44,848 nucleotides of DNA from NCBI GenBank assembly GCA_027449865.1, contig DAIDKV010000128.1, forward strand, positions 1-44,848, written 5' to 3'. Under the pieces are notes generated by a model that saw only the letters and a program-made list of their open reading frames with translations, ran no database searches and was not told the origin of the DNA. Shown piece after piece: positions 1,353-6,097 of this stretch; within the stretch, counting starts at the first letter, position 1; every line of letters begins with the position of its first letter. The stretch comes from Planctomycetales bacterium. Lineage in GTDB: Bacteria; Planctomycetota; Planctomycetia; Isosphaerales; Isosphaeraceae. A program made the position numbers and the translations under genes.

Positions 1353-4300
1353 TTACCTGGCGAACTCCACGATGGGTGCGATGTTCGAAGACCCATTCGC
1401 GGCGACGAGACCCGGCAGGACCTCAATTTCCACCTTCCCCTTGCTCGGCCTGACCAGGGTGATCGTCACGGAGTCGGCACTGGGGTTGTAGGCGACGCTC
1501 CGGATCGCCAGTACCTTTGAGTAGACCAACTGCTTGTGCCGCTTGATAACCTTCCGGACAGCCCCCAGCACTCGATAACGCCCGGGATTGGTCACCGAAC
1601 CCGCGTTGAGCGGCTCGGTGAAGCTCAGGGTATAGCTGGTTCCTTTCTTCGTGGACTTCACGCCGACCCCGCCTGTCAACTGGGGCGCCGGAGTTGGAGT
1701 GGGCGTGGGAACGGGCGTTGGAGTGGGCGATGGCGACGCTCCAACGATCTGAACCTGGGCCGCCGGCGAGGCTGGTACACCTCCGCTGGTCGGCGTGATG
1801 GTGTAGCTGCCGTTGGCGGCGATGGTCAGGCCGCTGAACGTCGCGAGGCCGTTCTGGGCTTCCAAAGTGATCTTGCCGCCGAGCGACGTCCCGGTCGGGC
1901 CACCGGAGATGACCAGCGTGACCCGGCCGCTGAAGGCGGTGTCGATCTGCCCGGGGCCGCTCTCGATGGCGACCGAGAGGCCGAAGGGAGCGCCCGCCTT
2001 GACCGTCGCGGGGGGCGAGGCCGTGACGAGGAGTGCGAGCGATTGGCTGCTGAGACTTCCGGAATTTTCCGGTCCATTGATCAGGCCATTCGATCCCGAC
2101 GAACCATTCGCTCCGGCGATGCCGTGCCCCCCGGCCTTGCCGATGAGCCCAACCGGTCCCGGGTTACCGTTATTGGCCTGACCGGTCTTGGATTTCCCGC
2201 CCTGGCCACCGATCGCTCCCTGCCCGGGTTTGTTACCCGCGTGTCCTCCAGGTCCATACTGAGACTGGGCGGAAGCCTGACGCGTGCCCGCGGGCCCGCC
2301 GGCCCCGGCGACCACGTTATCGCCCATTTGTTGGACGCCAGCAAGGGTCAAGCCGCCACCGGAGACGTAGATAGCGCCTCCGTTGGCCGCTCCGCCGGCC
2401 CCGCCTGTTCCCGTGTTGCCGCCGGCACCGCCGGCGCCGGCCTGCCCGGCGGCACCACCTCCGGCTCCGTTGCCGCCCGCGCCGCCTTGACCAAATGTGG
2501 CATCACCGCCGGCACCCCCTCCACCGCCATAGCCACCAGAGCCCGAAGCACTGAAGCCCCCGCCTACTGCCCCCGTGGCATCGCCCGCACCACCGCCGCC
2601 GCCGCCCCCCTTGGCCTGATTCGCGGATAGTGTATCCAGACCAAGATCGAGAGCGCCGCTGCTGACCGCGATCGCGCCACCGTTCCCAGTTCCCCCCGCA
2701 CCGCCCGCTCCCACATGCCCCGCCGCACCGCCGTCGCCCGCGATTCCGCCATAGCCACCGACGCCGCCATTGCCACCGATACCACCGGATTTGACTGTCC
2801 CGTTACTACCACCCCCAGCACCACCAATCCCGCCATTACCGCCCACACCGAATCCGCCGCCGCCACCACCGTCGCCACCGGCCGGCCCCTGGGCGGAGAA
2901 ATGTCCGCCGCCCACCCCGCCGTGGCCACCATCCGCCTGGTTTTTGGAAAGAGTCGAGCTGACCAGCGTGACCGTGCCTCCGCCCACATACAGGGCACCG
3001 CCGGCTCCGATCCCACCGGCCCCGCCATCGACACCCAGGCCGCCAGCGGCTCCCGCTCCACCGATTCCCGCCGCACCACCGGGGCCGCCCGCGCCGCCGG
3101 GGTCACCACCGAGTCCCTTGCCGCCCGCTCCGCCGTTTCCACCCGAGCCAGCCTGACCGCCATTGCCGCCCGCTCCGGCCTTGCCGGCGTCGAAACCACC
3201 ACCCCCTCCGCCCGCCGCGATGTTGTTGTTCAGAACGACCCCATCCAGACGAACGTTGCCCGTCGAGAGATACAGACCTCCTCCGAGTCCCGCTCCACCG
3301 GCGCCATTCTGGCCCGCATTGCCGGCCGCGCCTCCCAGGCCGCCGTTACCGCCGGCGCCGCCACCACCGGCGTTGCCGCCGGAACCCTGCTTGCCCGCCG
3401 CATTGCCGCCCTTGCCGCCCGCGCCCCCCTTACCGCCCTTCCCACCATTCCCGCCGGTTCCGCCGTCTCCTCCGCCGCCGCCCTGTCCATACCCCTCCGC
3501 GGAATTGCCGGAAAGCTGGCCGCCCGCCATGGTCAGCGAGCCTCCGGCGACGAAAATGCCGCCACCCCGAGCCGCCCCGTTCACGCCGCCATTCCCGCCG
3601 TTGCCGCCGGCGCCGCCATTCCCGCCGTTGCCACCGTTCGCTCCGATCCCTCCCATTCCGTCGGGCGCCGTCGCGTTGACCCCGCCAGCACCACCCAGTC
3701 CATTGGCCCCAGCCTCGCCATGGCCGCCGTTGCCACCATACCCGGCCTCACCGCCCGCGGCCGCATTCGAGCGCACGGCCGCATTCGAGAGCACCGCCGT
3801 CCCACCGGCAAGGTAAATCCCCCCACCCGACGCCGATCCGCCCGCGCCGGCGTTCCCGCCATTCCCACCGTTCGGACCCGCCACCCCAGTGCCATTCCCT
3901 CCGACACCGCCATAGCCTCCATTACCGGCGCTCACAGTGTTCACGTTGATGGTCGAGTTGATCACGGTCAACTGGCCCGAGGCGACGTAAATGCCACCGC
4001 CGCGCGCATCGCTCCCCGCGCCGCCGTTCCCGCCGGCCTGTCCCGCCGCACCGCTGGCACCCATGGCCCCCATGACACCGACCGCCGAGTTGGAGGCGAC
4101 GTTCGCATCGCTCAGCGTGACCTTGCCGCCGTCGATCAAAAGCCCACCACCAAGCGCCGCCGCCCCCCCCAGAACGCCTCCGTCGGTCGCCTTGCCGCCC
4201 GTGATCTCCAGATCCTTGAAAATCACGGAGGCACTCCCCAGTACCTCAAAAACCCGCGAGACCGATCCACCCGAGATTTTCGTCTGTGTGGGCGAGGCCG

Positions 4301-4574
4301 CAAGCCCCTCGATCGTCAGGGTTTCCGAGCCGCTGGAGCCGTTCGCGATCACGATCTGCTGAGAGGCCGCCAGCGTGATCGATCCGGAAATCTCGATGAT
4401 GCTGTTACCGCCCGTCAGACCGGCCGCGTTCACATCCGCCTGTAACTGGGCGGCCGAGGCCACTCCCGTGAAGACGGTCGGTGTGATCCGGCTCTCCATC
4501 GCCTCGACCATCAGCCCAAGAGCCCGACGACGACGTTCGGCCTGCCTGCGGAGCGGGCATCGCTTCGACAGCAT
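1353..4574 (-). CDS. Giant Gly-rich right-handed beta-helix surface protein
   Basis: This is a 1073-residue secreted or surface protein. The N-terminus has an Arg-rich start, then LMVEAMESRITPTVF, which resembles the planctomycete LExR/LEPR-type N-terminal motif. Residues 40-135 look like a beta-helix cap (AAQLQADVN, EISGSITL). Residues 141-760 hold eight copies of a roughly 28-residue unit of the type GGGIYVASGQLTVINSTI, at about 141, 191, 250, 336, 430, 525, 631 and 731. They are separated by long GGNGG/GGAGG spacers. This resembles polymorphic-membrane-protein or parallel beta-helix rungs with Gly-rich loops. Residues 848-945 look like an Ig-like domain. A Pro/Thr linker follows (about 946-964), then a C-terminal domain of about 105 residues (YTLSFTEPLNAGSVTNPGRY). 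GAGGG sits seven bases before the ATG. PE_PGRS-like composition is convergent. Function is unknown; adhesion or envelope structure is inference. Confidence 0.85.
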   Translation of the reverse strand: MLSKRCPLRRQAERRRRALGLMVEAMESRITPTVFTGVASAAQLQADVNAAGLTGGNSIIEISGSITLAASQQIVIANGSSGSETLTIEGLAASPTQTKISGGSVSRVFEVLGSASVIFKDLEITGGKATDGGVLGGAAALGGGLLIDGGKVTLSDANVASNSAVGVMGAMGASGAAGQAGGNGGAGSDARGGGIYVASGQLTVINSTINVNTVSAGNGGYGGVGGNGTGVAGPNGGNGGNAGAGGSASGGGIYLAGGTAVLSNAAVRSNAAAGGEAGYGGNGGHGEAGANGLGGAGGVNATAPDGMGGIGANGGNGGNGGAGGNGGNGGVNGAARGGGIFVAGGSLTMAGGQLSGNSAEGYGQGGGGGDGGTGGNGGKGGKGGAGGKGGNAAGKQGSGGNAGGGGAGGNGGLGGAAGNAGQNGAGGAGLGGGLYLSTGNVRLDGVVLNNNIAAGGGGGGFDAGKAGAGGNGGQAGSGGNGGAGGKGLGGDPGGAGGPGGAAGIGGAGAAGGLGVDGGAGGIGAGGALYVGGGTVTLVSSTLSKNQADGGHGGVGGGHFSAQGPAGGDGGGGGGFGVGGNGGIGGAGGGSNGTVKSGGIGGNGGVGGYGGIAGDGGAAGHVGAGGAGGTGNGGAIAVSSGALDLGLDTLSANQAKGGGGGGGAGDATGAVGGGFSASGSGGYGGGGGAGGDATFGQGGAGGNGAGGGAAGQAGAGGAGGNTGTGGAGGAANGGAIYVSGGGLTLAGVQQMGDNVVAGAGGPAGTRQASAQSQYGPGGHAGNKPGQGAIGGQGGKSKTGQANNGNPGPVGLIGKAGGHGIAGANGSSGSNGLINGPENSGSLSSQSLALLVTASPPATVKAGAPFGLSVAIESGPGQIDTAFSGRVTLVISGGPTGTSLGGKITLEAQNGLATFSGLTIAANGSYTITPTSGGVPASPAAQVQIVGASPSPTPTPVPTPTPTPAPQLTGGVGVKSTKKGTSYTLSFTEPLNAGSVTNPGRYRVLGAVRKVIKRHKQLVYSKVLAIRSVAYNPSADSVTITLVRPSKGKVEIEVLPGLVAANGSSNIAPIVEFAR

Positions 4575-4978
4575 CGATCAACCCTCAGATCGAAAAACTC
4601 TTCTTTGAGTCTCGCTCAAACATCGGCGAGCCATAACACCAGATTATACAACAAGTCAACTTTGGAGTGACAGCTATTAAGAAAATGCTTGATTAAAACA
4701 ACATGAATCGTCGGCTGTTGCCAGTGCGAAACGCGCGGAAACTTACGGTCCCCAGGTGTCGACCACGGGCGATGAACCATTTTCACTCGCTGGTAACAGG
4801 GTCCAGATCGACTCGATCTCAAGGGCTCTCCCGGATCCTCGCGAATATTCGACAATATTCTGTTGGCAAAAATTTATCTTGACGCGGCGGGGAGAGATGG
4901 GTCCCATTGAAGGTAGGGAATCATCTTCCCTACCCTTCTTCGCCATTATCAGGGTCGCAGAAAAAAGAGGAGGCCGTC
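4575..4978. other. AT-rich divergent intergenic region
   Basis: These 404 bases separate the two divergent surface-protein genes. Positions 4600-4700 and 4840-4885 are clearly richer in A/T than the coding DNA around them, as expected for promoters. I see no convincing -35/-10 pair and no conserved coding frame. The one clear element is the palindrome at 4843-4860, listed separately. Confidence 0.5.
4843..4860. promoter_or_regulatory. Perfect AT-rich palindrome, operator candidate
   Basis: GAATATT-CGAC-AATATTC is a perfect 7-bp inverted repeat with a 4-base spacer. It lies about 118 bases before the DUF1559 start and about 270 bases before the Gly-rich gene start. It stands out in a GC-rich genome. 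A binding site for a dimeric regulator is plausible; the regulator is unknown. Confidence 0.35.
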
Positions 4979-6097
4979 ATGGTCCGGAGGCATCGTCCGG
5001 GGGAGCGTCAGGCGTTCACCTTGATTGAGTTGCTGGTCGTCATCGCCATTATTGCCGTTCTTATCGCGCTATTGCTGCCGGCGGTTCAAGCGGCGCGTGA
5101 GGCGGCTCGTCGGGCTCAATGCACCAACAACCTGAAGCAGATCGGCCTGGCGATGCACAACTATCACCAAGCGGTGAACTCATTTCCGCTGGGGGTGGCG
5201 AACTGCAATTTTCCCGGTCATCTGATGCTGACGACCTACACCTGGGACTGCTGGAGCAGCCATGCGATGATGCTTGACCAGCTCGAGCAGACGGCGATGT
5301 ACAATGCGATCAACTTCAACCTGAACAACAACGTTCCGAACAGCCCCGGGTTTTACGCCAATTCGACGGTGACCGGCCAGCGGGTGGCGGCATTCCTCTG
5401 CCCGTCGGACCCGAACGCCGGAAGCCTCTCGCTGGTCCGACCGGCGGACAAGCGGACCGACATGCTCGACCTGAGCTATGTGGCCTCATCGGGGACGACG
5501 ACGCTGAGCCCGAACAACATCGTTTACACCAAGGGGAGCTGGGCGAACCAGGGGAGCACCGGGTTGTTCTGGTGGTATCGGAGCTACGGCATCCAGTCGG
5601 TCACCGACGGAACCTCGAACACGGTGGCGTTCTCCGAGGCGCTGGTGAGTAACGGTCAGGCATCGAACAAATACCCCGGAAACTCGATGACCGGGATCAG
5701 CGGTGCCGGCGGAGCGGCGCAGCAGTACGACGCCAACCAAAATTCGACGGCGGTGATGGCCGGGCTCAACGCCTGCAACCTCGCCTGGAACAGCGGCCAG
5801 GGGATCAGCGAATTCCGCGGGATATTCTGGGAAATCGGCTCGCTCGGGATGACGATGTTCAACACGATCGTGCCGCCCAGCTCGACGACTTACCCCTGGG
5901 GCGATTGCCGATTCACCGGCGGCGGCTACCCCAACGACGCGACCTTCGCCAACGCCAACAGCAACCACCCCGGCGGCTGTAACGTTCTCTTCGCTGATGG
6001 AAGCGTTCACTTCATCAAGAGCAGTATCAACATGTATACCTGGTGGTCGCTCGGAACGAAGGCCAACGGCGAGGTGATCTCGTCCGACGCCTATTGA
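4979..6097 (+). CDS. DUF1559 prepilin-like secreted protein
   Basis: This is one of the many DUF1559 (SBP_bac_10-type) proteins of planctomycetes, 372 residues from the chosen start. The N-terminus carries the type IV prepilin signature: a basic leader ([11 protein letters not shown]) followed by [19 protein letters not shown]. That is a cleavage/methylation site for prepilin peptidase and a hydrophobic assembly helix. [20 protein letters not shown] follows, the family hallmark. The C-terminus has the usual [19 protein letters not shown] segment. The start at 4979 is supported by AGGAGG five to six bases upstream. The frame is open further upstream (to 4907), but that part lacks the signature. 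The protein is probably exported by a type II secretion/pseudopilus-like route. Its role is unknown. Confidence 0.93.

Follow-up and report, generated by a model that had tools for sequence, protein, structure and literature searches.

A predicted beta-helix with lengthening glycine-triplet inserts, probably forming a tapered polyglycine-II blade, in a protein of a Planctomycetales bacterium

Whether a protein in which conserved rungs alternate with ever longer glycine-rich stretches has an ordered architecture, and whether the lengthening has a structural reason, is the question raised by one gene of a Planctomycetales bacterium (GenBank assembly GCA_027449865.1). The DNA analyzed, referred to here as the window, is a stretch of 44,848 nucleotides (contig DAIDKV010000128.1, positions 1 to 44,848), and the ORF at 1353–4574 on its reverse strand encodes 1073 aa. 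Long ORFs on the opposite strand (e.g., 2715–4445 on the forward strand, 576 aa) were set aside by judgement as composition shadows of the glycine codons. An earlier note on this DNA had read the protein as eight beta-helix rungs separated by glycine-rich spacers that lengthen toward the C-terminus. Table 1 summarizes the parts of the protein.

Table 1. Parts of the glycine-array protein and their positions in the window.
Feature	Residues (aa)	Window position (strand)	Basis and remarks
Arg-rich N-terminus ending EAMESRITPT, a LEPR/LEDR-like planctomycete motif	1–33	4476..4574 (-)	
Beta-helix N-terminal cap and first coils	34–141	4152..4475 (-)	AlphaFold pLDDT mostly 80–97; block conserved in relatives
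Rung 1 (GGGLLIDGGKVTLS..NSA)	142–166	4077..4151 (-)	HMM match, model strands
Gly insert 1, 25 aa		4002..4076 (-)	
Rung 2	192–216	3927..4001 (-)	HMM match, model
Gly insert 2, 33 aa		3828..3926 (-)	
Rung 3	250–274	3753..3827 (-)	HMM match, model
Gly insert 3, 62 aa		3567..3752 (-)	
Rung 4	337–361	3492..3566 (-)	HMM match, model
Gly insert 4, 69 aa; tip AAGKQGS flanked by two GGx arms		3285..3491 (-)	
Rung 5	431–455	3210..3284 (-)	HMM match, model
Gly insert 5, 69 aa		3003..3209 (-)	
Rung 6	525–549	2928..3002 (-)	HMM match, model
Gly insert 6, 82 aa (longest)		2682..2927 (-)	
Rung 7	632–656	2607..2681 (-)	HMM match, model
Gly insert 7, 75 aa		2382..2606 (-)	
Rung 8 (weakest rung)	732–757	2304..2381 (-)	HMM match, model; pLDDT about 67–86
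Gly-rich C-terminal tail of array	758–845	2040..2303 (-)	Low model confidence
Ig-like domain, inferred from sequence look	846–945	1740..2039 (-)	No Pfam family
Pro/Thr-rich linker (SPTPTPVPTPTPTP)	946–965	1680..1739 (-)	Sequence
Small C-terminal domain	966–1073	1356..1679 (-)	No Pfam family

The eight repeat units were recovered using a profile HMM (12–30 bits each), and their starts (Table 1) and intervals lay within 1–2 residues of the figures given in the earlier note. The rung-to-rung intervals were 50, 58, 87, 94, 94, 107, and 100 residues, with a Kendall tau of 0.86–0.88 (p 0.006). Because a plain beta-helix coil takes approximately 24–27 residues in the relatives, the remainder of each interval was assigned to the insert, which gave the lengths listed in Table 1. 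The eight rungs were each scored by the HMM, but the helix comprises more coils than these, as residues from about 40 to 141, modelled as strands and one helix, add an N-terminal cap and the first coils.

The fold of the core was examined using an AlphaFold model of residues 34–847, built together with ten relatives. In this model (pTM 0.71), rungs 1–7 appeared as strands with pLDDT values of 86–97, and rung 8 was weaker. Structural alignment with the alginate epimerase AlgE6 gave a Z score of 28.4 over 291 residues (rmsd 2.5 Å, model range 1–814), and many further right-handed beta-helices also aligned. Since the alignment spans the model from end to end, the helix is predicted to be continuous, and the glycine stretches are predicted to exit and re-enter at one corner, after Asn-x-Ala. 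The core is accordingly predicted to be one continuous right-handed parallel beta-helix with approximately 25 residues per coil, similar to the beta-helices of Rhombotarget A (9cdv), PfbA, SRRP, and pectin and alginate enzymes (Z about 20–28). A second model was obtained for L074, a relative with a different N-cap; its pTM was 0.79, its arms were mostly at pLDDT 70–94, and it matched beta-helix proteins along its length (Z 23.8). Searches of the window protein in Pfam and NCBIfam returned nothing significant, so it has no match to a curated beta-helix family, and a PDB sequence search returned nothing. No Pfam model covered the repeats of those relatives that were searched, and a choice-of-anchor Q domain was recognized in two distant relatives. 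As the top structural alignments were with alginate epimerases and lyases, the protein might be an enzyme or carbohydrate-binding beta-helix of this type, with the glycine inserts as ornaments. However, many unrelated beta-helices including adhesins and tailspikes scored similarly, the identity was about 10–20%, and no enzyme family of Pfam or NCBIfam matched the window protein. Because most beta-helices score alike, the alignments were not read as function, and the enzyme reading was considered highly improbable.

The nature of the inserts was assessed from their glycine pattern. The spacers had been described as nearly pure GGNGG/GGAGG, but they are actually composed of GGx triplets with about 40–56% glycine, and a glycine-poor stretch near the middle is found family-wide. 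In 111 inserts, a glycine was followed by another at +3 with a frequency of 0.77, whereas shuffles gave 0.51 (z 49.7); the periodicity persisted at lags of 6, 9, and 12. The window protein taken by itself gave a lag-3 z value of 8.8. Of 164 inserts, 80% had their glycine-poorest 9-mer in the central third, compared with 49 ± 4% in shuffles, and the in-phase glycine density fell in the middle of the insert. The triplet rhythm and the central glycine-poor stretch are what would be expected of a tip flanked by two GGx arms. Insert lengths were not clearly biased toward any remainder modulo 3. Three giant relatives (L131, L132, and L135; ORFs of 3140–3250 aa) contain several glycine arrays in a single polypeptide, and their arms are joined by long non-glycine tips, for example FEVVFSFSVNTSFAVPV.

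Structural similarity offers a hint of how such arms may be packed. In a Foldseek search, the second-best match of the window model was 7jjv, a springtail antifreeze protein with nine polyproline-II (PPII) helices (E 5.7e-3, prob 0.99), a match found by Foldseek only, with small query coverage, low TM, and high rmsd; the same structure was listed again, weakly, for the L074 model (prob 0.08). The earlier note had proposed giant loops that may form a brush. In that reading, the glycine stretches would be flexible, disordered, low-complexity loops that surround a beta-helix rod like a hydrated brush, as glycine-rich sequence frequently is disordered and the distal parts of the longer inserts in the window protein were modelled with pLDDT below 50. 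However, the arms of the second lineage (L074) were predicted with considerably higher confidence, and scrambled PE_PGRS33 lost its PPII in published simulations, so that residue order matters (PMC13243192). Because glycine recurs at every third residue, a tip lies at the center, and the Foldseek match is to a PPII bundle, a flexible brush is unlikely, and the evidence points to ordered, stacked hairpins. We infer that the inserts are antiparallel polyglycine-II hairpins that stack on their neighbours into a flat blade.

The closest comparison is with the mycobacterial PE_PGRS proteins, whose GGx triplets were proposed to form polyglycine-II sandwiches, with sail-shaped AlphaFold models (PMC9436101), and for which simulations back persistent PPII bundles (PMC13243192). 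The window protein shares the GGx triplets, with the same glycine period of 3 (z 8.8), and its arms would resemble the proposed two-layer stack of antiparallel polyglycine-II, in which one edge is regular and the other is irregular with variable loops (PMC9436101). In contrast, the PGRS regions have neither a beta-helix nor regular rungs, whereas each hairpin of the window protein would spring from a beta-helix coil and the lengths are graded. The window protein also lacks a PE domain (no Pfam match); it begins with an Arg-rich LEPR-like segment, after which comes the beta-helix cap. Glycine-rich PPII bundles of the kind proposed for the arms also occur in springtail antifreeze proteins (7jjv) and in the phage S16 adhesin gp38. 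To our knowledge, these bundles are not built on a beta-helix, and the right-handed beta-helix proteins named above are not known to carry a long glycine-triplet hairpin on every coil.

The length gradient was then compared in other proteins. The arrays, 38 proteins in all, were taken from genomes belonging to the same genus or family and to further families within the class and phylum, as well as from one Gemmataceae genome. The shortest interval was the first in 35 of the 38 proteins, and the second half of the intervals was longer in 36. Examples are 57, 68, 60, 75, 89, 94, 95, 89, 92, 98, 98, 99, 103, and 105 residues in L064; 53, 66, 73, 73, 78, 82, 70, and 82 in L074; 40, 45, 51, 53, 56, and 54 in L152; 67, 75, 80, and 85 in L131; and 38, 51, 82, 86, and 83 in L054. 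Two proteins did not rise (L073 and L079), and some members were almost flat (L152b, L153, L156, and L167b). A few intervals with a low-scoring rung were split or omitted by hand, using two versions of the rung model. Lineages were clustered on the N-cap sequence alone; clustering with the repeats included was rejected, as glycine-rich matches chained the proteins into 5 groups. With one protein per N-cap cluster (10 clusters, a count of independent cases that is uncertain because looser clustering fuses the lineages into one or two groups), the mean tau was 0.56–0.64 and 0 of 5000 permutations were as high (p<0.001). When the least favourable member of each cluster was used, p was still 4e-4. 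Dropping the first interval weakened the trend (mean tau 0.34, p 0.01–0.04), and dropping both the first and the last gave a tau of 0.62 (p 0.0003) with six groups left. The median early step was +6 residues, which would correspond to one extra triplet per arm.

The lengthening reported previously was therefore real in its early part and shared by most relatives, but it is not steady: the intervals ramp up, reach a plateau, and often drop at the last unit. As the glycine period of 3 is strong and the ramp is conserved in relatives, the pattern goes beyond chance, and the taper looks like a real design feature, kept across several planctomycete groups in most relatives, and not like random low-complexity filler. 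Random spacer lengths together with the lack of a predicted beta-helix would have pointed the other way; the outcome favours the earlier reading of a beta-helix core with lengthening glycine inserts, as structure prediction backs the core and the relatives retain the gradient.

A genome of the same genus (G003) has a syntenic orthologue with 97% identity over residues 1–194. Because its contig ends, the gradient had to be compared in paralogues and in relatives at a greater distance. The 131 bases that follow the orthologous part (L060:4268-4398) match nothing in the window and run to the contig end. Contig ends in or near a glycine array were seen in several genomes (G000:C156, G000:C269, G003:C543, G017:C36, and G028:C345), so draft assemblies probably under-count these proteins and contain truncated versions of them. 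In a sample of 240 Verrucomicrobiota genomes, 3 matched, and only one of the stretches retrieved from them had glycine inserts, which were irregular. A deltaproteobacterial sample, which carried no positive control, gave no match, and neither did the plasmid and phage collections.

The taper might also be a by-product of descent, in which all relatives inherited one ancestral array whose first unit was short, and duplication of long C-terminal units lengthened the later intervals, with no structural selection; this account is compatible with the stacked-arm structure. Between proteins, 96% of pairs had their best match for rung 1 at an identical index; the share was 46% for rung 2, about 30% for rungs 3–4, and 7–21% from rung 5 onward, so position is clearly conserved for rung 1 alone. 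The first intervals were also alike within the family (52, 78, 58, 75; 57, 68, 60, 75; and 57, 74, 58, 85 residues), and the first units are clearly explained by descent. However, from unit 5 onward the rungs had no positional match across relatives, which argues that the trend does not consist merely of unchanged inherited units, and neighbouring rungs were just modestly more similar than distant ones. As the rungs have diverged and only short local tandem repeats remain in the DNA of the window gene, the lengths cannot be put down to recent duplication. Moreover, the ramp recurred with different N-caps and with plateaus of about 54, 82, and 100–120 residues. The lengthening persists in units without positional identity and reappears in lineages whose N-caps differ, which speaks for a structural reason behind the taper, and descent alone was judged rather unlikely to account for it.

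Taken together, the protein is probably a beta-helix scaffold, itself probably secreted, with a tapered polyglycine-II blade on one edge. Adjacent coils of a beta-helix lie approximately 4.8 Å apart, and polyglycine-II helices pack at this distance as well. Because the two distances are equal, outgoing and returning arms can stack in two layers. A GGx-triplet hairpin would enter after the Asn-x-Ala that closes each coil, always at the same corner over seven successive coils, and the two stacked layers of arms would form a polyglycine-II blade joined along one edge of the helix. The arms would be short near the N-terminal cap, gain approximately one triplet per arm per coil, and then reach a plateau, and such grading would give the blade a tapered, sail-like outline with variable non-glycine tips displayed on its outer edge. 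A more specific version, held tentatively and with somewhat less than even confidence, is a composite fold in which the beta-helix templates the blade hairpin by hairpin, the arm lengths are selected for the taper, and the exposed variable tips serve as binding loops arrayed along a rigid sail.

The fold elements are known, and their combination and the conserved taper appear to be unreported in the open-licence literature. In the open-licence papers searched, no description was found of a beta-helix with polyglycine-II hairpins or of a PPII bundle combined with a parallel beta-helix, and nothing relevant was found on glycine-rich beta-helices in Planctomycetes. If the proposed architecture is true, an uncharacterized class of planctomycete proteins, easily dismissed as low-complexity, has an ordered and unusually regular structure in which a beta-helix and a polyglycine-II bundle are linked via a matching repeat distance. 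The addition of approximately one triplet per arm per coil would then be a natural rule for tapered protein sheets, and the proteins would provide a model, from outside the pathogens, for the glycine domains of PE_PGRS proteins, which are poorly understood.

The location and role of the protein were considered from its termini. In 25 of the 38 array proteins, a motif of LEPR-like shape preceded the first rung, and that of two relatives resembled NCBIfam LEPR-8K, just under the cut-off. For LEPR-XLL (NCBIfam NF012209), the window protein gave no match, and two relatives scored 13.7–15.4 against a cut-off of 17. The Ig-like region (residues 846–949) had many matches in the window genome and related genomes (79 hits), and the small domain at residues 966–1073 recurred in other proteins, at 0–14 residues from their C-terminus. 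In the window protein, for which the earlier note had suggested a surface layer or a spacer through the envelope, we found no signal for anchoring or for crossing the envelope. The N-terminal motif, the Ig-like and C-terminal domains, the beta-helix, and the variable tips would all fit a scaffold that is secreted or lies on the cell surface, and our leading guess for its role is adhesion or display.

In many Isosphaeraceae relatives, a sedolisin (S53)-type protease-like domain is fused to the glycine array (L052, L053, L064, L069, L071, L073, and the C-terminal part of L062); it is absent from the window protein. L053 matched tripeptidyl-peptidase 1 and sedolisin by sequence, and the other fusions were judged by eye. 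Upstream of the array gene and divergent from it, the window encodes a DUF1559 protein with an N-terminal prepilin-type methylation motif (4907–6097, forward strand), which is syntenic in G003.
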